NCBI RefSeq assembly: GCF_900005615.1
Contig: NZ_LN832559.1
Location: 2,426,001 to 2,490,000 of the forward strand
Direction: 5' to 3'
DNA length: 64,000 nucleotides
Source of the DNA: Paracoccus aminovorans
Lineage (GTDB): Bacteria; Pseudomonadota; Alphaproteobacteria; Rhodobacterales; Rhodobacteraceae
Shown piece by piece: positions 16,879 to 38,194 of the stretch. The notes beneath the pieces were generated by a model. It saw only the letters and a list, made by a program, of their open reading frames with translations, did no database searches and had not been told where the DNA came from. A program made the translations under genes and the position numbers. The first letter of the stretch is position 1. The number at the start of each line of letters is the position of its first letter.

Positions 16879-17137
16879 CGTTCAAGCGTTCCCTCAAAAG
16901 AAGGTTGATCGAGAACGACGGCGTGAGCGTACCCACGCTGCTACCGCCCCATACGCATCAGTTTTCCAAAACCTGTTCCCGATAGCCTTTTCCCGAAACC
17001 GGCTGATGGAGATGGAGAAACGGGACTACCGAGTGCGTTCCGAGCAACCGATTTCGGGATGACAGGGCGGGCGCCGGAGCGTCTTGGCTGAGAGGCAGCT
17101 GTGACGGCGGTCTGCGCCGCCGCCGTGCCTGCGCTTT
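16879..17137. other. Intergenic stretch at the cargo/backbone junction
   Basis: Together with the repeat and leader that follow, this is a 434-bp gene-free stretch before ardC. I see no credible coding frame in 16879-17137: short open frames lack start sites and recognisable motifs. The right copy of the 30-bp inverted repeat begins at 17138. The sequence from there on resembles the leaders of the other backbone genes. Confidence 0.55.
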
Positions 17138-17167
17138 AAGTTAGCGCTTATGGGAAAGCCTTCCCCC
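17138..17167 (-). repeat. 30-bp inverted repeat, right copy
   Basis: Starts AAGTTAGCGCTTATGG and is the inverse of 13061-13090 with two mismatches. It lies 145 bp before the ardC start and marks the probable right border of the IS4/AraC/SDR cargo. Sequence similarity does not continue on either side of the 30 bp. Confidence 0.7.
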
Positions 17168-17257
17168 TGGTCGGCACTGGCGTTGCCGACGCACCCCCAT
17201 CAGCGGGGAGACCCCGCAACGCCCCCTTGAGAGTGAGAGTGCGGACGGGTTTTCCGT

Positions 17258-17297
17258 GACGGGTTGAGGGCTGGAAGAGAGGCTTCCGGCGCCCGTC
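17258..17297 (+). promoter_or_regulatory. Structured leader element, copy 1 (before ardC)
   Basis: First of three related 40-42 bp elements. The outer stem is GACGGG/CCCGTC; the inner stem GCTGG/CCGGC has one G-U pair; the loop is AAGAGAGGCTT. It ends 15 bases before the ardC ATG, just ahead of the ribosome site. Copies 2 and 3 show base changes that keep both stems paired. A smaller hairpin (CGGA...TCCG) lies directly upstream. Confidence 0.65.
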
Positions 17298-17312
17298 GCG
17301 GAGATCATCCCG

Positions 17313-18275
17313 ATGGCCAGACAGGATCGCAGCCCCGCTGACGGTGGCGCGCGCAGCAACCTTTACGACGACATCACCAACAAGATCATCGCCGAGCTGG
17401 AGCAAGGCCGGCTCCCCTGGGTCCAGCCATGGGGCGCGTCGCCGGATACCGCCCCGCTGGGCCTGCCGAAAAATGTTTCAACCGGCCGGTCATATTCAGG
17501 CATCAATATTCTCATTCTCTGGGGTGCTGTCATCCAGCACGGTTTCCCCGGTCAGGCGTGGCTGACTTTCCGACAGGCGCTTTCGCTGGGCGGCAATGTC
17601 AGGAAGGGCGAGCGCGGCACCACCGTCGTTTATGCCGACCGTTTTACCCCAGAGGACGAAAAACGCCGTGCCCGCGAGACGGGTGAGGATGCGCATGCCA
17701 TTCCGTTTCTGAAGCGGTTCACGGTCTTTAACGCCGCGCAATGCGATGGCCTGCCCGATGAGATCACGGCAGTCGCGCCGCCACCGCCGCCGGGGCTGAT
17801 CGAACCTCGGGTCGAGGCGCTGATCCGGGCCACCGGCATCGACTTCCGTATCGGTGGCAATCGCGCCTTCTATATGCCGTCGCTCGACTATGTGCAGGTG
17901 CCGCCTCCGCAAGCCTATTTCGAGCCGATCAACTGGCACAGGACGGCCCTGCACGAGCTGGGCCACGCCAGCGGCCATCATAGCCGTCTCAACCGCGATC
18001 TGACCGGCTCGTTCGGTTCGAAGAAATACGCCTTCGAGGAAATGCTTGCCGAACAGACCGCAGCTTTCAGCTGTGCCGCGCTCGGGATCGTGCCGACGGT
18101 GCGCCATGCCGATTACATCGGGTCGTGGCTGGAGGTCATGCGCGAGGATTCCCGCGCCATTGTCCGCGCAGCCTCGCAGGCCAGCAAGGCGGCGGACTGG
18201 CTGCTGTCGCATCTGCCTGCCGAAGACACCGGGGAGCCGGATGCCAGCGTAACCGACCGGAGGGCTGCGGCATGA
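17313..18275 (+). CDS. ardC: Antirestriction protein ArdC
   Basis: 320 residues. The N-terminal ssDNA-binding ArdC domain (about 15-140) shows LYDDITNKIIAELEQGRLPW, N-x-x-T-G-R-x-Y-S-G-I-N, Q-A-W-L-T-F-R-Q-A and K-G-E-R-G-T-T-V. The C-terminal zincin-type metallopeptidase domain has H214-E215-L-G-H218 within W-H-R-T-A-L-H-E-L-G-H-A, and a downstream E-E-M-L-A-E. ArdC protects incoming conjugative DNA from restriction and is standard near the leading part of such elements. It starts after a structured leader, and its stop overlaps the DUF2958 gene. Confidence 0.93.
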   Translation: MARQDRSPADGGARSNLYDDITNKIIAELEQGRLPWVQPWGASPDTAPLGLPKNVSTGRSYSGINILILWGAVIQHGFPGQAWLTFRQALSLGGNVRKGERGTTVVYADRFTPEDEKRRARETGEDAHAIPFLKRFTVFNAAQCDGLPDEITAVAPPPPPGLIEPRVEALIRATGIDFRIGGNRAFYMPSLDYVQVPPPQAYFEPINWHRTALHELGHASGHHSRLNRDLTGSFGSKKYAFEEMLAEQTAAFSCAALGIVPTVRHADYIGSWLEVMREDSRAIVRAASQASKAADWLLSHLPAEDTGEPDASVTDRRAAA

Positions 18276-18667
18276 TGCTCCTGACCGGCACACAGCGCGA
18301 CCACCTGCTGGCGAATGGTCGCCAGCGCGATCAGGATCACATCCCGGTCGTGAAGTTCTTCAACCCCCTCGGCGAGGGCGTCTGGCTCGCCACCGAACTG
18401 GGTGAGGATGGCGACATCATGTTTGGCCTGGCCGATCTCGGCTATCCAGAACTCGGGTCGTGGAGCCTTGGCGAGATGCAGTCAGTCCGGCTGCCCTTCG
18501 GCATGGGCATCGAGCGCGATCTGCTGTTCACCGGGGATTTCCCGATCTCGGTCTGGGCCGAGGCCGCCCGTGAGACCGACAGCATCCGCGCCGCAGAGCG
18601 TCTGCTCTACCGCGTCGGCGCGAGCTTTTCTCGTACATCCGCCGATACAGAAAACCGGAGTGCCTGA
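18272..18667 (+). CDS. DUF2958 protein
   Basis: 131 residues from MMLLTGTQRDHLLANGRQRD, through PVVKFFNPLGEGVWLATEL, D-G-D-I-M-F-G-L-A-D-L-G and PELGSWSLGEM, to ERDLLFTGDFPISVW. This is the DUF2958 pattern, common beside ardC and ParB-type genes on alphaproteobacterial plasmids and integrative elements. Function unknown. The ATG at 18272 overlaps the ardC stop (ATGA), so the two are translationally coupled. An upstream in-frame ATG exists inside ardC but lacks conservation. Confidence 0.85.
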   Translation: MMLLTGTQRDHLLANGRQRDQDHIPVVKFFNPLGEGVWLATELGEDGDIMFGLADLGYPELGSWSLGEMQSVRLPFGMGIERDLLFTGDFPISVWAEAARETDSIRAAERLLYRVGASFSRTSADTENRSA

Positions 18668-18735
18668 TTTCCGGGTTTCAGGTTCTGCGGCTGGCGTCGC
18701 TCTCTTCAGAGGAAGAGGGCGGCGCTTCGCTTCGT

Positions 18736-18777
18736 GACGGGCTGATAGCCGGAGAGAGAGGCTCACCGGCGTCCGTC
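18736..18777 (+). promoter_or_regulatory. Structured leader element, copy 2 (before the ParB-type gene)
   Basis: Outer stem GACGGG/TCCGTC, with a G-U pair where copies 1 and 3 have G-C. Inner stem GCCGG/CCGGC, fully paired. Loop AGAGAGAGGCTCA, nearly the same as copy 3. It ends 14 bases before the ATG at 18792, followed by the ribosome site ATGGAG. Confidence 0.65.
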
Positions 18778-18791
18778 ATGGAGTAACTGAC

Positions 18792-20930
18792 ATGGCCACT
18801 GCCGTTCAGAAGATCACCCTGTCGTCTTCGCGCGACATTCCCTTCAACAAGCTGGTGCTCAGCCAGTCCAACGTCCGGCGCGTCAAGGCCGGGATCTCGG
18901 TCGAGGAACTGGCCGAGTCCATCGCCCGTCGCGGCCTGATCCAGTCCCTGCATGTCCGCCCGGTAGTGGATGCCGAGGGCAAGGAAACCGGCATGTTCGA
19001 GGTGCCCGCCGGCGGTCGCCGCTTCCGGGCGCTGGAACTGCTGGTCAAGCAGAAGCGCCTCGCTAAGGTCGCGCCGGTCCCCTGCGTCATGTCGGAGGCC
19101 AGTGCCGATGTGCTGATCGACGAGGTATCGCTCGCCGAGAACATCGAGCGCGCACCGCTGCATCCGCTCGATCAGTTCCGCGCCTTCCAGGCCATGCGCG
19201 AAAAGGGAATGACCGAGGAAGCCATCGCCGCCGCCTTCTTCGTGGATGCCAAGGTGGTGAAGCAGCGCCTGCGTCTGGTCTCCGTCTCGCCGGCATTGCT
19301 CGACGTCTATGCCGAAGACGGCATGACGCTGGAACAGCTCATGGCCTTCAGCGTCAGTTCTGACCATGCCCGGCAGGAGCAGGTCTGGGAGGCAATCAAG
19401 GATGGCTGGCAGAAAGAACCCTACCACATCCGTCGCCTGCTGACCGAAACCACGGTCCGCGCCGCCGACAAGCGGGCAGTGTTTGTCGGAATTGCCGCCT
19501 ATGAGGAGGCTGGCGGCTGCGTCTTGCGCGATCTCTTCCAGCAGGACGATGGCGGCTGGCTGCAAGATCCGGTGTTGCTCGACCGGCTGGTGGGCGAAAA
19601 GCTGAAGGCCGAGGCCGAAGCCATCGCCGCAGAGGGCTGGAAGTGGATCGAGGTCGCCATCACCTTTCCCTACGGTCACGATCATGGCCTTCGTCAGATT
19701 GTCGGCACTACGGTCGATCTGAGCGAAGAGGAACGCGCCACCCGCGAGGCATTGCGCGACGAATATGACCGGCTTGAAGCAGAATATGGAGAGGCTGACG
19801 AACTGCCTGACGAGATCGACGCCCGCCTCGGTGAGATCGAACAGGCACTGGAAACCTTCGAGCGCCGTCCGATGACCTTCGACCCCGATCAAATCGGCAT
19901 GGCGGGTGTCTTCATCAGCATCGACGCCGACGGCGCATTGCTGGTTGAGCGCGGCTATGTTCGCGCCGAGGATGAAACGCCTGCGGAACCGGAGGCGGAG
20001 ATCGTTGACCCGGAAACCGGCGAGGTGATCCAGCGGGCAGAACCGGAGGCAAGCCGCATGCGTGCGGTTATCACGCTGGGCGGCCAGCCGGTCGAAATGG
20101 AGGAGGAAGACGAGGCCGACACCATCAAGCCGCTGCCCGATCGTCTGGTCAGCGAGCTGACCGCACACCGCACGCTGGCGCTGCGGGATGCGGTGGCGGT
20201 GAACCCGCATGTCGCCATGACCGCATTGCTGCACCGGCTGGTCATGGATTGCTTCATGCCGCATTCCAGCAAAGGATGCCTCGAAGCACAGGTTCGTGAG
20301 GTCCATCTGCCCGCACAGGCCGAAGATCTGCGTGATAGCTTGTCCGCCAAGGCCATTGCAGACCGACACGAACGCTGGGGCGATCATGTCCCGGCAGACG
20401 ATGCCGCCCTTTGGGACTGGCTGACCGATCTGGACGATGGTTCGCGCATGGATCTGCTCGCCCATTGCGTCAGCTTCGGTGTCAACGCGCTCTATGAAAA
20501 GCCCAACCCCTATAGCGGCACGGGCGTCAGTCAGCACGGGCTGGACATCCGCCTCTCGCAGGCTGACCGGCTGGCCCGTTCGACCGGCCTCGACATGGTG
20601 GCCGTGGGCTGGCGACCGACCGTTGGCAATTATCTCGGCCGCGTGACCAAGCCGCGTATCCTTGAAGCCGTGCGCGAAGGGGCCGGAGACCGGGCTGCCG
20701 ATCTGATCGGGCACCTCAAGAAAGGCGACATGGCTAAGGAAGCCGAACGCCTGCTGGCCGAGACCGGCTGGCTGCCTGAGCCGCTGCGCATGGTGGACGA
20801 AGGCATCGAAGTCGAGCCGGCATCGGGCGCTGCGGCTGAAGCCGACGATCTGCCCGATTTCCTCTCCGGCGATGGCGAGGACGATCCGGCCGACGACGAG
20901 GATGAACAGCATATGGTCGCTGCTGAATAG
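18792..20930 (+). CDS. Large ParB-domain (ParB/RepB/Spo0J) protein
   Basis: 712 residues. The N-terminal ParB nuclease-like domain (15-115) shows IPFNKLVLSQSNVRR, L-A-E-S-I-A-R-R-G-L-I-Q-S-L, the PAGGRRFRAL box and L-A-E-N-I-E-R-A-P-L-H-P-L-D-Q. A helix-turn-helix follows (about 135-170). The remaining ~500 residues include an acidic segment near 315-345, a middle domain and an Asp/Glu-rich tail. Such long ParB-like proteins are typical of Tn4371-like integrative elements, where they are thought to help maintenance or act as regulators. It does not sit next to parA, which is 15 kb away. A structured leader precedes it. Confidence 0.88.
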   Translation: MATAVQKITLSSSRDIPFNKLVLSQSNVRRVKAGISVEELAESIARRGLIQSLHVRPVVDAEGKETGMFEVPAGGRRFRALELLVKQKRLAKVAPVPCVMSEASADVLIDEVSLAENIERAPLHPLDQFRAFQAMREKGMTEEAIAAAFFVDAKVVKQRLRLVSVSPALLDVYAEDGMTLEQLMAFSVSSDHARQEQVWEAIKDGWQKEPYHIRRLLTETTVRAADKRAVFVGIAAYEEAGGCVLRDLFQQDDGGWLQDPVLLDRLVGEKLKAEAEAIAAEGWKWIEVAITFPYGHDHGLRQIVGTTVDLSEEERATREALRDEYDRLEAEYGEADELPDEIDARLGEIEQALETFERRPMTFDPDQIGMAGVFISIDADGALLVERGYVRAEDETPAEPEAEIVDPETGEVIQRAEPEASRMRAVITLGGQPVEMEEEDEADTIKPLPDRLVSELTAHRTLALRDAVAVNPHVAMTALLHRLVMDCFMPHSSKGCLEAQVREVHLPAQAEDLRDSLSAKAIADRHERWGDHVPADDAALWDWLTDLDDGSRMDLLAHCVSFGVNALYEKPNPYSGTGVSQHGLDIRLSQADRLARSTGLDMVAVGWRPTVGNYLGRVTKPRILEAVREGAGDRAADLIGHLKKGDMAKEAERLLAETGWLPEPLRMVDEGIEVEPASGAAAEADDLPDFLSGDGEDDPADDEDEQHMVAAE

Positions 20931-21028
20931 CACTCATGCGGGGCGGCTTCGGTCGCCCCGCCCTCTTTCCCCTTCCACCGCATAGCCCGGCACTCCGCCG
21001 GGCCATTTTTGTTTAAGGAGACAAAATC

Positions 21029-21367
21029 ATGCCGCACAACGCCAAGGCTCCAAACGACCAGGGCAGCCCGAAGTCGGTTCATGTCGCCATCTACGATCAT
21101 CCGCACGGCACGGATGTCCGTGTTTTTCTCGCCAGGGATCGAGCTTTGAACTGGCGTACAGACATTGCCAGGGAATGGTGGAGCAATGCCTATGACGACG
21201 ATCCCCCGCCGGACGAGGAGATCGGGGAGAAGTATTTCGACCGAATGCTGGATCGCGGCGAGGAGTTTTTCTCGATACAGCTCTGTGACGTAGAAGTCGG
21301 CGATCACGTTGCTACCGATCCGACCGTTCTCGCTCCGCGCAGCGCCAGCGGAGGTGCATCATGCTGA
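21029..21367 (+). CDS. Hypothetical element protein
   Basis: 112 residues, acidic, starting MPHNAKAPNDQGSPKSVHVA. It has the segment HGTDVRVFLARDRALNWRTD and an acidic D-D-D-P-P-P-D-E-E-I run. I recognise no family. A good AAGGAG site precedes it and its stop overlaps the start of the next gene (ATG at 21361). Likely a small accessory protein of the conjugative element. The preceding 98 bp contain a GGGGCG...CGCCCC hairpin after the ParB-type gene. Confidence 0.6.
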   Translation: MPHNAKAPNDQGSPKSVHVAIYDHPHGTDVRVFLARDRALNWRTDIAREWWSNAYDDDPPPDEEIGEKYFDRMLDRGEEFFSIQLCDVEVGDHVATDPTVLAPRSASGGASC

Positions 21368-21657
21368 CCGTCGATGAGATCTTTGCCCAAGATCGGGAAA
21401 ACCGTCCGATGGAGCGCACGCTGCCCTGGGAGGAAACCCGCGACGGCATCACTGTCGTCGTGGAACCCAAACCCCATTGGGCCGAAGACATGCGCGTGTT
21501 CCGCCTCGATGCACGCGAGCATTGCCGCTACGCAGAATGGACTGCCCATGGCGGCCGCGGGCGCTTCTATGGTCACATCGACACTTCGGGCGATGATCTG
21601 ATGATGAAGGCGCGCGCGATGATCGCCCGAGAAATTGCCGATGGGCTTTGGAGCTGA
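21361..21657 (+). CDS. Hypothetical element protein
   Basis: 98 residues, starting MLTVDEIFAQDRENRPMERT, with no recognised family. Its ATG lies within the last codons of the upstream gene, so the two are translationally coupled. The sequence is rich in charged residues and ends in MIAREIADGLWS. It has no signal or membrane segment, so a cytoplasmic accessory role is likely. Confidence 0.6.
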   Translation: MLTVDEIFAQDRENRPMERTLPWEETRDGITVVVEPKPHWAEDMRVFRLDAREHCRYAEWTAHGGRGRFYGHIDTSGDDLMMKARAMIAREIADGLWS

Positions 21658-22079
21658 GGGCTCGATCGGGGATGTCGCGCTCGGGCCGTGAGGATGGGAG
21701 GTCTACACCGGACGGGTCCAATCCGGCTGCACCATGCCATCTGCCGTCCCATTCAGGACAAGCGGCAGCCATCTCTGGCCTGAAGGGAACACGATCCTGA
21801 TGCCAGCATGGTGGCAAGGCTGGCGCGGCAGAGCATCTGCAACGGGTATCCGGCATCCTGTCAGAGGCAAAGCACCACCCCCGCTTCCATTCGCAAACCT
21901 TGGTCCGATCCGTCTCTTTGACAATCAACCCGTGAAGGGTCGGCTTACGCGAGCGTGCCGCCCTCGGGGATTCGGAAAAAGTCCGAACGCCCTCGGGTGA
22001 TTGCAGATCCGGTCAGACACTTCGGGCGCCTGTCGCGCGGGGGATGGTCCCCCGCCTCCAAAGACAGGAGCCGGAACCC
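21658..22079. other. Gene-free stretch before the 54-aa protein gene
   Basis: 422 bp. The open frames on both strands lack ribosome sites and recognisable motifs, so I call none. A TTGACA-like hexamer (tttgacaatc) occurs near 21918 and could be part of a promoter for the downstream small gene. Confidence 0.4.
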
Positions 22080-22244
22080 ATGTCCTATGCAGATGCCACC
22101 GCCTTCGCCGCCAGCCTTGCCGCCACGCTGATGGTTTCGATCGTTGTGTTCCAGGCCGGAGACGGCACCCACGCCGCTTGCCCCGCCGCCGAGTTCGACG
22201 GCGATGACGACATGGTGAAGCTGGAGTTGGACCCGTGGGAGTAA
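22080..22244 (+). CDS. Small protein, 54 aa, hydrophobic N-terminus
   Basis: Starts MSYADATAFAASLAATLMVS with a CAGGAG site 9 bases before the ATG. Residues 6-26 form a hydrophobic helix (possible membrane anchor), followed by an acidic tail ending KLELDPWE. No family recognised. A GGCGC(gaaa)GCGCC hairpin directly after the stop could terminate it. The clean start, helix and terminator make it a reasonable gene call, though it is short. Confidence 0.5.
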   Translation: MSYADATAFAASLAATLMVSIVVFQAGDGTHAACPAAEFDGDDDMVKLELDPWE

Positions 22245-22385
22245 GGCGCGAAAGCGCCTCATCCCCGACGGCCCGAGCGCGGCAGCCCGCGCTTCGGGCC
22301 TTCAGCCTTGCGATGATCCCCATCGCCGGCAGCGGAACCGGGAACAAGCCCGGTCAGAGAGGAAGAGTGCGGGCCGTTCGGCCGT

Positions 22386-22427
22386 GACGGGTTGAGGGTC
22401 GGAGAGAGAGGCTCACCGGCGCCCGTC
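22386..22427 (+). promoter_or_regulatory. Structured leader element, copy 3
   Basis: Outer stem GACGGG/CCCGTC, inner stem GTCGG/CCGGC with one T-G (U-G) pair, loop AGAGAGAGGCTCA. It ends 14 bases before the ATG at 22442, again followed by ATGGAG. An upstream hairpin GGCC(gttc)GGCC abuts it. Copies 2 and 3 agree at nearly every position outside the compensated pairs. Confidence 0.65.
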
Positions 22428-22441
22428 ATGGAGTAATCCCA

Positions 22442-22990
22442 ATGACCTTTGCCCGTTCCGAAACCTTCCGTTCCATCGGTCATATTCTGGCTGCCGATGT
22501 TCTGCCCGCGCTTTATCGGTCGCAAAAGCTGCCGCTGCGCATCTCGTGCCTCGGCGTGGCCAACTATGACGCCAGTGACGCGGCGAACAGTTTTGACCGC
22601 GTGATCCCGCTTGGGGAATGCCCGTCACCGGAAGAGGCCATCCAGGCCGCAGCCTTGCGCCTGTCGCGCGGTGATATTTGCACGGGGCCGGACAGCTTCC
22701 CGTATTTTCAGCCGCGCATCATGCTCATTCAGGACCGCGATCAGCGCCTGGTCCTCGCCGGCGAAATCCGCGCCGGCATTATCCTCTGGCAACAGCCGGT
22801 CGCATGCGATGCCGAGGCACGCAGGATCCTGACCGAGGCCAGCCGCCTGCGCGGTATGGCATTCCGGGCCTCGGACCCCGGTGATGCGAGACGGCTGCGT
22901 TACCGCGCCGCTGCACTGGAGGTCCGGCTGGTCGATCCCTTCTGGCGCGAGACCGCAGCCGATCTGCTCCGCCTGCCACAGGCCGCCTGA
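22442..22990 (+). CDS. Hypothetical element protein
   Basis: 182 residues, starting MTFARSETFRSIGHILAADV. No family recognised and no catalytic motif visible. The middle reads DSFPYFQPRIMLIQDRDQRL and the C-terminal half is helical and Arg-rich. It is preceded by the third structured leader, placing it in the same regulatory group as ardC and the ParB-type gene. Probably cytoplasmic. Confidence 0.62.
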   Translation: MTFARSETFRSIGHILAADVLPALYRSQKLPLRISCLGVANYDASDAANSFDRVIPLGECPSPEEAIQAAALRLSRGDICTGPDSFPYFQPRIMLIQDRDQRLVLAGEIRAGIILWQQPVACDAEARRILTEASRLRGMAFRASDPGDARRLRYRAAALEVRLVDPFWRETAADLLRLPQAA

Positions 22991-23055
22991 GCTTCACCCT
23001 TCCCATCCCATTCGGCTCGGTTTCACGCCGGGCCATGTCATGCCTGGAGACCGTC

Positions 23056-24160: not shown

Positions 24161-24268
24161 CATGCTGCGGTTTGAGAGTGAGAGGCTGGCCGGAAAGGGT
24201 CAGGTCCGGGTGGTCGATAGAGAGCGCTGTCCGGGCTTGTCCCTTCCCGCTCTCCTGAGGTTCCCGAC

Positions 24269-35966: not shown

Positions 35967-37466
35967 ATGCTGATCGTGGAGACAATCGCAAAAATCAGGC
36001 GGCTACATTTCACCGAGGGCAAGGGGATCAAGACGATCTGCCGTGACCTGAAGCTGTCGAAGAAGGTGGTGCGGAAGGTGATCCGCACCGGGATTACCGA
36101 GTTCACCTATACCCGGACGGTGCAGCCGCGCCCGAAGCTGGGTGCCTGGCTGGGGGAACTCAACCGGCTGCTGGAGGTCAACGCCGCGCGGTCCAGCCGG
36201 GAACGTCAGTCTCTGATACAGATCTACGAAGAACTGAGCGGTCTCGGTTATGAAGGTGGGTATGACGCGGTGCGCCGCTACGCCTCGAACTGGGCACGCA
36301 CTCAGAGTTCAGGCGCTTCTGCCGCCTTCGTGCCCCTGAGCTTTGCGCCCGGTGAAGCCTATCAGTTCGACTGGAGCCACGAGGTTGTGGTGATCGATGG
36401 GGCGACCACCACCATCAAAGTGGCCCATGTTCGCCTGTGCCACAGCCGGATGTTCTTTGTGCGGGCCTATCCGCGCGAGACGCAGGAGATGGTGTTCGAT
36501 GCCCACGACAGGGCTTTCGCCTTCTTCAAGGGCACCTGCACCCGCGGGATCTACGACAACATGAAGACGGCGGTGGAGACCATCTTCACCGGCAAGGAAC
36601 GCCTCTACAATCGTCGGTTCCTGCAGATGGCCAGCCATTATCTGGTCGAACCCGTTGCCTGCACCCCTGCTGCGGGTTGGGAGAAAGGCCAGGTGGAGAG
36701 CCAGGTCGGCACTGTCCGTCAGCGGTTTTTCGCGCCCCGCGTCAGGGTCAAGAGCTACGAGGAACTGAATGCCTGGCTGCTGGACAAGTGCATCGCCTCG
36801 GCCAGAACCAGCAAGCATCCGGAGCTGACGGACAAAACCGTCTGGCAGGTCTTCCAGGAAGAGCGCCCGCACCTTGTCCCCTATGCCGGGCGCTTCGACG
36901 GATTCCATTCACTGCCTGCGGCGGTGTCAAAGACCTGTCTCGTGCGCTTCGACAACAACAAATACTCCGTCGCGGCAACGGCTGTCGGGCGGCAGGTCGA
37001 GATCAGGGCCTATGCTGAGCGGATCGAGATCCGGCAGGAGGGCCGACTGGTCGGAGACCACCCGCGTCACTTCGGCCGGGACCGAACGGTTTACAATCCC
37101 TGGCATTATGTGCCTGTTCTGCTTCGCAAACCCGGGGCGCTGCGTAACGGCGCACCGTTCAAGGACTGGGTTCTTCCCGGAGCTCTTGAACAGATCCGCC
37201 GCAAGCTGCAGGGCTCCTCAGATGGCGACCGCCAGATGGTGAAGGTCCTCGGCGCTGTGCTGACGGAAGGGATGCCTGTGGTTCAAAAGGCATGTGCCGA
37301 AGCTCTCTCGCAAGGCGTCCATTCTGCCGATGTAATCCTCAATATTCTATCCCGCAGGCGAGATCCGGAACCACCACCGCTTCTGCTGACCTCTCCGGCC
37401 TTGCAGTTGACCCATGAGCCTGTGGCGGACTGCGCCCGTTATGATCTGCTGCGGAGGGCCTGCTGA
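35967..37466 (+). CDS. istA: IS21-family transposase IstA (copy B)
   Basis: 499 residues, the same protein as the one encoded at 386-1885, with D135, D197 and E244 in place. Both copies appear intact, so the element is probably recent and capable of movement. The near-complete identity also makes the two copies a substrate for homologous recombination that would remove the 35.6 kb between them. Confidence 0.95.
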
Positions 37467-38194
37467 TGGATCGTGCTGACATCATGGCTGCAATGGGCGA
37501 GTTGAAGCTCTACGGGATGCGCGCCGCTTATGACGAACTCATGGCGGTGGCTGTGCGCCGCCAGCACGAACCCCGCCAGATCGTTGGAGATCTTCTGGCC
37601 GCCGAGATCAACGAGAAGAAAGCGCGGTCGGTCAAATACCAGATCACCACCGCCAAGCTGCCCTATGCCCGGGAGATCGAGGAGTTCACCTTCGATGACA
37701 CCCCAATCAACGAGACCCTGGTGCGAGATCTGGCCAGCGGGGAGTTCCTCAGCCAACAGCGCAATGTCGTGCTGGTTGGCGGCACCGGGACCGGCAAGAC
37801 CCATATCTCTGTGGCCATAGCGCGCGCGGTCATCCGCAATGGTGCCCGGGGCAGGTTCTTCAATGTCGTCGATCTGGTGAACAGGCTGGAGGCCGAGGCC
37901 CGTGCCGGACGGGCAGGCCGGCTTGCAGAACATCTGATGCGGCTCGACTTCGTCATCCTCGATGAACTCGGATACCTGCCATTCGCGCAGTCCGGCGGCC
38001 AGCTGCTGTTCCATCTGATCAGCAAGCTCTATGAGCAGACTTCCGTCATCGTCACCACCAACCTCGCATTCGGGGAGTGGCCGACCGTCTTCGGAGACGC
38101 AAAGATGACCACCGCGCTGCTCGACCGGCTCACCCACCACTGCGACATCGTCGAGACCGGCAACGACAGCTGGCGCATCAAAACCCGAGCCTGA
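37466..38194 (+). CDS. istB: IS21-family helper ATPase IstB (copy B)
   Basis: 242 residues, the same protein as at 1885-2613, with Walker A 105-112 and Walker B near 160 intact. Start overlaps the istA stop (TGATG). The IS right end follows after about 130 bp. Confidence 0.95.

Follow-up and report, generated by a model that had tools for sequence, protein, structure and literature searches.

Why do several unrelated genes on one stretch of Paracoccus aminovorans DNA carry the same structured leader directly ahead of their start codons? The window analyzed here (the whole stretch of 64,000 nucleotides) contains three such leaders, called type 1, before ardC, a parB-like gene and the gene of a 182-aa protein (Table 1).

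Leaders in the window

A sequence-only reading of this DNA had placed three elements at 17258-17297, 18736-18777 and 22386-22427, with an outer pair changing from G-C to G-U in copy 2 and an inner stem GCTGG, GCCGG or GTCGG facing a constant CCGGC. These coordinates and changes are correct, and the spacing to the ATG codons (17313, 18792, 22442) is 15, 14 and 14 bases for copies 1, 2 and 3. The two nested stems it described are present, but both are longer than it gave. The inner stem (P2) has 8 bp in copy 1; in copies 2 and 3 a single A-A mismatch splits it into 5 + 3 bp. The outer stem (P1) extends into the Shine-Dalgarno (SD) sequence GGAG, taking in the whole SD in copies 1 and 2 and GG alone in copy 3; in copy 2, the strand that ends in the SD is paired at all of its 12 positions. 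The loop is conserved as claimed, mostly as AGAGG, but its outline had to be corrected to AGAGG closed by a G-C pair, the form present in the window copies. Folding z-scores of copies 1-3 are -5.8, -4.4 and -4.8, and the predicted stem energies range from -28.6 to -33.5 kcal/mol, for stems of about 12 + 8 bp. Copies 2 and 3 are the sole matches of a two-gap pattern search (0.00 expected from shuffles); copy 1 falls outside this pattern, the top of its inner stem being two bases shorter.

The three copies are thus real but do not make up the full count, as a related fourth leader (type 2), before a helicase gene, had been overlooked. A second small hairpin said to precede each copy did not hold up: in 107 segments its stability is that of shuffled sequence (mean difference +0.07 kcal/mol), with 4% of them within the most stable 5% of shuffles. 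In an arm-swap test on 92 thinned leaders among the matches listed, 15 of 200 swaps match the real pairs, i.e. pairing with the anti-SD strand barely beats that of swapped partners.

Table 1. Leaders, their parts and the genes that follow them (positions in the window)
Feature	Position	Strand	Remark
Type-1 leader of ardC (copy 1)	17230..17303	+	AGAG box, anti-SD strand, P1/P2 hairpin, SD
Copy 1 AGAGNNAGAG box (AGAGTGAGAG)	17230..17239	+	
Copy 1 P1 5' strand (TTCCGTGACGGG)	17252..17263	+	first four bases opposite SD
Copy 1 P2 strands	17270-17277 and 17283-17290	+	
Copy 1 P2 loop AGAGG	17278..17282	+	
Copy 1 P1 3' strand	17292..17303	+	terminates in SD GGAG (17300-17303)
ardC (ArdcN + MPTase-PolyVal)	17313..18275	+	
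DUF2958 gene	18272..18667	+	overlaps ardC end; no R1 match ahead of gene
Type-1 leader of parB-like gene (copy 2)	18708..18783	+	SD 18780-18783
ParB-like protein, 712 aa	18792..20930	+	ParB_N; about 500 C-terminal residues without Pfam family
Type-1 leader of 182-aa gene (copy 3)	22358..22433	+	SD 22430-22433
182-aa protein	22442..22990	+	no Pfam, NCBIfam or PDB sequence match
Type-2 leader	24174..24260	+	before Strawberry-notch helicase gene
Type-2 GAGAGTGAGAG	24174-24184	+	
Type-2 loop segment GAGAGCG	24220-24226	+	
Type-2 CGCTCTC	24248-24254	+	
Type-2 SD GAGG	24257-24260	+	
Strawberry-notch-type helicase, 1444 aa	24269..28603	+	preceded by type-2 leader

Distribution of the leader family

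Judged by sequence, type-1 leaders are a large family in alphaproteobacterial mobile elements. The census, together with the wobble, loop, box, anti-SD, SD-pairing, SD-accessibility and mini-ORF/arm-swap counts, is based on alignments A2 (the best 150 of 159 matches) and A3 (the best 150 of 173). Chance matches (L010, L033, L104 and L117), judged by eye, were excluded. Weak or incomplete rows were also left out, seven in the family census and eight in the wobble, loop, box, anti-SD and SD-pairing counts. The wider model search covered L003-L102, while L103-L122 appear only in one listing and in A1 and A4, the seed alignments; relatives of the type-2 leader were sought in 100 sources. Copies of a leader identical in sequence and flank entered the counts a single time, some genome_contigs and whole-genome loci being the same contigs.

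Among the matches listed, 239 of the 244 ORFs (40 aa or longer) that follow a leader fall in four families (ParB-like 113, ArdC 62, DUF932-like 44, 182-aa 20). Where an ORF was called (253 leaders), the ATG lies 7-9 nt past the end of the model match, mostly with GGAG, in 247. Among the 100 sources, relatives of the type-2 leader precede antirestriction and DUF6878 genes. The four-family census and these related leaders before helicase, antirestriction and DUF6878 genes support the earlier proposal of a regulon. The leaders had no match in Rfam 15 (the window at the gathering threshold; 17000-23000 at E up to 5), in agreement with the statement that no named class fits. No description of the family was found in the open-licence literature, and terms such as ArdC, ParB, leader or untranslated are absent from the main text of two papers on Mesorhizobium elements; the host elements apparently include relatives of rhizobial symbiosis islands. 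Copy 3 had no match in the 'phages' set. The viral_contigs set gave 8 matches on 7 contigs, of which 4 are real leaders as judged by eye: two stand ahead of a parB or ardC start, the other two ahead of different ORFs.

Shine-Dalgarno sequence in the outer stem

In the consensus, the 5' strand YUYCGUGACGGG pairs with CCCGUC-(G/A)(C/U)-GGAG, so that the SD lies, partly or wholly, in the base of P1. In most copies among the matches listed, the YUYCGU strand upstream forms pairs with the SD, in part or in full, and this anti-SD strand is conserved within an otherwise G-rich stretch. Counted outward from P1 in the 249 distinct leaders among these matches, at least four pairs (GG of the SD) are present in 214 and at least six (GGAG) in 134, while 35 have fewer than four bulge-free pairs; the value of 134 exceeds all 300 arm swaps, but by a small excess (swap mean 124). 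The SD differs from GGAG in 14 of the leaders listed, of which 5 retain at least six pairs and 9 have 0-3. The median unpaired probability of the SD, again among the matches listed and for leaders ending in GAG (others excluded), is 0.041 in 243 leaders; for 135 control ORFs it is 0.292 (p = 1.7e-14). For ParB homologues picked by protein (23 loci, L221-L243), the upstream 12-mer that best matches the SD-ending strand forms 10-12 of the 12 possible pairs at 21 loci and 8 at the other two; compensatory changes are included, and at L240 the anti-SD strand follows an altered SD. Five distant ParB homologues score 5-8 for the same pairing.

According to these predictions, the SD is base-paired in type-1 leaders and not in type-2, where it is not buried (mean unpaired 0.58, n=34). 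It is this anatomy, the SD in a stem and a fixed spacing to the ATG, that argues for control of translation as proposed earlier. Since the folded RNA hides the ribosome landing site, it probably controls the timing of translation.

Conserved box and loop

A AGAGNNAGAG box, overlooked by the earlier reading, is conserved upstream of the hairpin. Its four occurrences in the window are exactly the four leaders, where 1.69 would be expected by chance anywhere. Among the matches listed, conservation of the leader begins abruptly at this AGAG box, and no conserved promoter was found at a fixed distance upstream of it. These observations bear on a passive fold-back lock acting without a trans factor, in which read-through transcripts stay untranslated, as with the transposase gene of Tn10, and translation proceeds from transcripts starting inside the leader. 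The predicted burial of the SD in type-1 leaders fits such a lock; we nevertheless consider it doubtful, for it leaves the conserved box and loop unexplained, the related type-2 leader does not bury its SD, and promoter-like conservation upstream is lacking among the matches listed.

Alternatively the loop could be the site of a translational repressor or activator or of a small RNA, SD burial being incidental. Box and loop are indeed conserved while the stem sequence, in P2, varies freely among leaders, and loop position 3 tends to change jointly within one element: among the matches listed, both copies are non-A in 6 of 92 same-element pairs against 1.5 expected (p = 0.0008), the A/non-A state being discordant in 12 of the 92. 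Position 5 has no such joint change within elements (both non-G in 1 of 92, one non-G in 22 of 92, same matches), and recombination or descent could also be the source of shared loop changes. This reading we hold unlikely, given that the anti-SD strand is itself conserved within G-rich surroundings and follows an altered SD in 5 of the 14 leaders mentioned and at L240, although 9 of the 14 do not do so without a bulge. A site of mRNA processing or stability, such as a target of RNase III or RNase E or a hairpin that protects the 5' end, would agree with the long stems; it is a very unlikely explanation, which accounts neither for the precise position against the SD nor for the conserved loop.

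Two other candidates were examined and rejected. A mini-ORF GTG-ACG-GGN-TGA within the leader has its TGA in about 40% of 300 rows among the matches listed. For an antisense RNA carrying CTCTNNCTCT, the window has just four matches, each of them one of the leaders read on the reverse strand.

Covariation and folding strand

That the leader is an RNA element, as first proposed, is supported by covariation in both stems and by G-U cells outnumbering A-C cells on the sense strand. In alignment A1 (53 rows, aligned purely on sequence; the search pattern fixed P1 and left P2 free), 94.3% of cells are paired versus 88.8% in shuffles, none of the 500 shuffles being as high, and pairing falls to 31-47% when partners are slid by 1-3 columns. 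RNAalifold on A1 adds to P1 two pairs beyond the search pattern, with G-C, G-U and A-U forms. Pairs with two-sided changes are not in excess in A1 (5 versus 4.3 in shuffles, 225 of 500 reaching 5); in A2, which holds the best 150 of 159 matches and is fitted to the model, they are seen at 13 of the 14 pairs (P1: 5 of 6). A search for homologues keeping the sequence and breaking both stems did not overturn the claim.

Over 16 pairs in 236 distinct cores among the matches listed, we counted 487 G-U cells against 63 A-C, which indicates that the mRNA-sense strand folds. A double-stranded DNA operator, such as a parS-like site for the neighboring ParB-like protein, is at odds with this bias. ParB matches do co-occur in 32 of the 34 leader genomes, two being without one; but stem length varies while the distance to SD and ATG is fixed, and instead of a strand-neutral conserved inverted repeat we found the wobble bias and a free P2 sequence, so that we regard an operator as highly improbable. 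The gene set, with ardC and antirestriction, is reminiscent of establishment genes known from other elements. A single-stranded DNA promoter of Frpo/ssi type is nevertheless hardly credible, as it is the coding strand that preserves its pairs whereas the incoming strand must be the template, and the hairpin terminates in an SD 7-9 nt upstream of the ATG.

Proposed mechanism and relation to known systems

Taken by sequence, the type-1 layout is a box, P1, an asymmetric internal loop, a P2 of 8-9 bp and a loop that is mostly AGAGG. We consider it probable that this leader is a cis-acting translational lock common to an establishment/anti-restriction regulon. With the hairpin intact, the SD would be closed to 30S subunits and translation low; a putative reader of the AGAG box, the loop or both, protein or RNA and from element or host, would stabilize or open the hairpin. 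A search for a trans-acting factor found none. The co-controlled set would comprise ardC or a DUF932-like gene, parB and the 182-aa gene, joined through the related type-2 leader by helicase, antirestriction and DUF6878 genes. Such a set suggests a programme by which the element establishes itself in a recipient following conjugation, and our guess is that the lock opens at a time set after transfer. More tentatively, the leader possibly supplies the cis-acting part of a zygotic-induction switch at the RNA level, whose element-encoded factor recognizes the AGAG box and an AGNGG-type loop: in a resident cell the factor would keep anti-restriction and establishment genes untranslated, and in a fresh recipient, where it is absent (or an opener present), all would be released together. 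If true, this would be a post-transcriptional counterpart of the p576 DNA repressor switch and of single-stranded DNA promoters. To our knowledge, the timing of such genes in alphaproteobacterial integrative and conjugative elements has been little studied.

A hairpin concealing the SD of a mobile-element gene occurs in the fold-back inhibition of Tn10 transposase and in the FinP-controlled traJ leader of F. Each of these serves a single gene, whereas the present leaders serve several, and we know of no common AGAG box or loop in those systems. In autogenous ribosomal-protein leaders, too, a small RNA structure by the SD controls translation; here, however, the downstream families include no ribosomal-protein gene, and one leader precedes several unrelated genes. 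RNA thermometers (ROSE, fourU) pair the SD with a pyrimidine-rich strand. The leaders differ from them in having no Rfam match and no heat-shock families downstream, and the predicted stem energies in the window speak against a thermometer.

A further likeness is to the establishment gene regulatory sequences EGeRS1 and EGeRS2 of pLS20/p576-type Bacillus plasmids (PMC8708921): a conserved sequence recurs immediately ahead of the ribosome binding sites of ardC and of further establishment operons on a single conjugative element, the genes behind our leaders being called establishment genes from their families. EGeRS1 is a Bacillus sequence of 420-750 bp whose mechanism is unknown, and EGeRS2 contains a promoter under a DNA repressor; the leaders, compared by description, are of about 75 nt, covary at the RNA level, hold the SD in a stem and belong to Alphaproteobacteria. 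Frpo/ssi sequences also form hairpins before early anti-defence genes of leading regions, but these are folds of the transferred DNA strand that carry -35/-10 boxes (PMC11541004), while in our leaders the coding strand folds and the stem holds the SD, not a promoter.

So compact an RNA motif is a sequence handle defining the regulon in any genome. It marks the 182-aa family, DUF6878 and DUF932-like proteins as ones that likely act together with ArdC and the antirestriction protein. The 182-aa protein had no sequence match in Pfam, NCBIfam or PDB. Its fold model is of low confidence (mean pLDDT 67.9), and Foldseek gave no match to it at E <= 0.001; PF19908 is the precomputed Pfam label on 1 of its 120 listed homologues.

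Conserved fold and folding strand of the type-1 leaders

The sequence-only reading had described three structured elements (17258-17297, 18736-18777 and 22386-22427), and all three positions were confirmed in the sequence. They belong to leaders composed of an AGAG box, an outer stem (P1), an inner stem (P2), a loop and a Shine-Dalgarno (SD), referred to here as type 1 (copies 1 to 3). Copies 2 and 3 were matched by a two-gap pattern for which no chance matches are expected; copy 1, in which the top of P2 is 2 bases shorter, falls outside this pattern. Compared with dinucleotide shuffles, the three copies have folding energies that are lower by 4.4 to 5.8 standard deviations. A search of Rfam 15 gave no match on the three elements, in agreement with the reading's remark that no named class fits.

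Leaders in the window and in a second element of the window's own genome (G000)
Leader	Downstream gene	Location	Remark
Type 1, copy 1	ardC	window 17230-17303
Type 1, copy 2	parB-like	window 18708-18783
Type 1, copy 3	182-aa gene	window 22358-22433
Type 2	Strawberry-notch helicase	window 24174-24260
Type 1	ardC	G000:C1 40181	second element
Type 1	parB	G000:C1 38708	second element
Type 1	182-aa gene	G000:C1 33133	second element
Type 2	DUF6878 gene	G000:C1 34545	second element
Type 2	antirestriction gene	G000:C1 about 30633	second element; weak, 25.9 bits
Type 2	helicase	G000:C1 30051	second element

In a 53-row alignment made by sequence alone, 94.3% of the cells are paired, above all 500 shuffles, and pairing falls to 31-47% when partners are slid by 1-3 columns. 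P1 belonged to the search pattern, so only P2 and two outer pairs added by RNAalifold are independent in this alignment, which holds five pairs with two-sided changes, no excess over shuffles. With model-found leaders included (fitted alignment), 5 of the 6 P1 pairs gain two-sided changes.

The statistics on downstream genes, structure, loop and SD rest on leader matches that are the best 150 of 159 and the best 150 of 173 ("best matches"). Among these, 236 distinct cores with 16 pairs each gave 3138 Watson-Crick, 487 G-U, 63 A-C, 71 other and 17 gapped cells, counted as sequences and not as evolutionary events; 44 of the 63 A-C cells fall on two P2 positions. A C-to-T change in a G-C pair yields G-U and a G-to-A change yields A-C. 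A strand-neutral DNA site would give both alike and was rejected on these counts; the folding strand is therefore, judged from the substitution pattern, that of coding sense, i.e. the mRNA. The RNA element proposed from the sequence alone is thus supported, by this asymmetry and by the pairing above shuffles.

Downstream genes and distribution

A called ORF follows 253 of the 261 distinct leaders (best matches), always with an ATG start, located 7-9 nt past the end of the model match in 247 of the 253; the match ends in GGAG in most. The other eight lack a 40-aa frame; one of these eight lies where its stretch ends. Four families hold 239 of the 244 downstream ORFs of at least 40 aa (best matches): ParB-like (113), ArdC (62), a family of about 397 aa (44) and the 182-aa family (20). 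The one member of the 397-aa family that was searched remains below the Pfam cut-off for DUF932 (19.4 vs 23 bits); four plasmid rows carry a DUF932 label under the match. The remaining five ORFs are singletons. One is an AlpA-type gene (leader at L220:2610-2692), possibly an excision factor. Most often ardC or the DUF932-like gene comes first, followed on the same strand by parB and then by the 182-aa gene; deviating orders are rare, and one contig of the order-level survey has leaders on both strands.

Scanning genome_contigs gave at least 120 stretches matching the leader, four of which are chance matches by eye (Chloroflexi, Clostridia, Natronincola, Oscillospiraceae). Record titles place the other 116 in Alphaproteobacteria, to which we take the genera named to belong, save four "Proteobacteria" MAGs, one "uncultured bacterium" (L005) and one Gammaproteobacteria MAG. 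The contig of this last MAG (L086) carries two leaders, reflecting either misbinning or true spread beyond Alphaproteobacteria. In the plasmid collection, 76 records matched. The covariance model R1, built on 53 leaders, finds 6 copies in the window's own genome, spread over two separate elements. Under stricter filters, with which weak matches are lost, R1 leaders were present in 77/292 genomes of the order, 20/289 of the class and 34/398 of the phylum, all 34 from the same class or closer.

Of the 398 phylum genomes, 52 (42 of them from the class) encode the ParB-like protein at E <= 1e-30, among them 32 of the 34 leader genomes; two of these 32 (G540, G552) have as their match a distant homologue located far from the leaders. 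In the two remaining leader genomes the protein was not matched: G641 has behind a leader an ORF that starts like ParB, by eye a broken copy, and G649 has one weak leader. R1 matched neither in ten class members whose ParB homologues are distant (34-47% identity) nor in any of the ten ParB-bearing genomes outside the class. Ten upstream stretches from eight of these ten outside genomes were inspected by eye, and the 8 readable ones, where start codons are uncertain, showed no such hairpin.

Loop, AGAG box and upstream boundary

The loop is AGAGG closed by G-C in 149 of 207 distinct cores (best matches). Most variants fit AGNGK, exceptions including AGAGC, AAAGG and four-base loops; a few are closed by A-U. 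Within one element, both loops are non-A at position 3 in 6 of 92 pairs (1.5 expected) and differ there in 12 pairs (best matches); position 5 shows no tendency to joint change in the 92 pairs. Conservation starts abruptly at the AGAG box AGAGNNAGAG, 28 nt upstream of GACGGG: in 197 thinned leaders (best matches), ten-base bins upstream hold 0.01-0.05 bits per position, the last bin before the box 0.09 (0.20 in ArdC leaders alone) and the box bin 0.65. With conservation this low, the profile gives no sign of a strong promoter at a constant distance upstream of the box, which argues for the leader being a post-transcriptional unit. Within the window, the box occurs in the four leaders only.

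Three weak R1 matches (L144:1944-2027, L215:3710-3793, L217:4651-4733) have the same P1 and, by eye, a P2 cap with an ACGG-type loop; they precede ORFs beginning MHDRDY or MDDRDY and are perhaps a leader of different specificity. Directly upstream of the ardC leader, at 17152-17228, lies a structured stretch (GGGAAAGCCTTCCCC ... CCCCATCAGCGGGG ... CCCCGCAACGCCCC) that recurs in 12 stretches ahead of ardC or DUF932-like leaders elsewhere; in the three measured, it is located 75-77 nt upstream of the AGAG box. A similar stretch in L044 has no AGAG box behind it.

Predicted burial of the Shine-Dalgarno

A pyrimidine-rich strand lies 5' of GACGGG, in surroundings that are 55% G: among 248 best matches, C is found at -3 in 216, C or T at -4 in 242, T at -5 in 160, and C or T at -6 in 205. 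Opposite the SD, it forms at least 4 bulge-free outward pairs from P1, reaching GG, in 214 of 249 distinct leaders (best matches), and at least 6, covering GGAG, in 134 (mean 124, maximum 132 in 300 arm swaps). In the window, GGAG is wholly paired in copies 1 and 2, and only GG in copy 3. Fourteen leaders have other SD letters at that place, with at least 6 pairs in five and 0-3 in nine, several of which could apparently pair if a single base bulged out. In three of the five (L203:15787, L218:3336, L219) the 2-nt spacer is missing and a UCUUU strand is shifted; another (L028) has one extra G and one extra C. In L240 the SD is GAAAG and the upstream strand UUUUC. The predicted unpaired probability of the SD has a median of 0.041 (mean 0.159) in 243 leaders (best matches) and of 0.292 (0.340) in 135 control ORFs of the same loci, picked by GGAG and ATG and thus ORFs rather than verified genes (p = 1.7e-14).

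A test without selection by the leader used 30 loci chosen via the ParB protein. Upstream 12-mers were compared with the strand that ends in the SD: for 21 of the 23 loci L221-L243 the best one pairs at 10-12 of 12 positions, and for L228 and L229 at 8. Five distant ParB homologues (L246-L250) score 5-8, with hairpins unrelated by eye; for L244 the start and for L245 the score was not obtained. Stable hairpins of quite another kind occur near the start codons of more distant ParB-like genes (L246-L250, L251, L255, L273-L275).

A longer leader of helicase genes

The Strawberry-notch helicase gene of the window is preceded by a longer relative (type 2), which retains the box, a P1 resembling GACGGG and a loop GAGAGAG, and carries an additional CGCTCTC right before the SD. 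In 18 aligned type-2 leaders, loop GAGAGCG and CGCTCTC are complementary in all but 1 of 126 cells, weak evidence for pairing because the collecting pattern already required most of those letters. The AGAG box would compete for this CTCTC; the arrangement may be a pseudoknot or a switch. Type-2 pairs covary (fitted alignment; G-U 80, A-C 19), and SD burial is absent in the prediction (0.58 unpaired, n=34).

Searching 100 sources with the type-2 model R2 yielded 43 matches, of which the last six score 26-32 bits; R2 also matched in 22/101 related genomes. By ORF start, judged by eye, the 43 precede helicase-like (30), DUF6878-like (5) and antirestriction (4) genes, with 4 unassigned; Pfam confirmed DUF6878 in one of the five and PF03230 in all four antirestriction genes. 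The second element of the window's genome carries six leaders, three of each type.

Possible mode of action

The analysis establishes a conserved RNA fold, a fixed spacing and a leader common to anti-restriction, ParB-like and helicase genes, and structure prediction places the SD within the stem. Such a fold would lower translation until something opens the stem. The loop and box are conserved, and loop position 3 tends to vary jointly within an element; both observations suggest a putative trans-acting reader. According to excerpts of the sources, ardC expression of plasmid R388 is required in recipients and not in donors (PMC7213743), and a burst of expression following transfer is presumed for the establishment genes of other elements (PMC8708921); by analogy, a natural guess is that leader-controlled genes would be timed to the period after conjugation. 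No description of this leader was found in the surveyed part of the open-licence PMC results; the nearest concept found, as excerpted, is EGeRS1 of pLS20.

Backbone of the leader-bearing element

The backbone of the annotated plasmid pMC4 comprises ardC (zincin-like), DUF2958, ParB, hypothetical genes, Strawberry-notch, Toprim, DUF2493, DUF736, DUF2285/DUF6499, RepA, ParA and a DUF3363 gene, the last presumably a relaxase. FseA of ICEMlSymR7A has domains DUF2285 and DUF6499 (excerpt of PMC10359603), and trb genes were found in the window; we infer that the leader-bearing element is akin to ICEMlSymR7A. ORF pairs of the same size (499 and 242 aa) at 386-2613 and 35967-38194 appear to be duplicates of a single IS21-type insertion sequence, with transposase domains detected for the first pair. 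The window's element may be defective, because in the TrbE-like ORF behind the second copy the match covers just the later portion of one TrbE domain.
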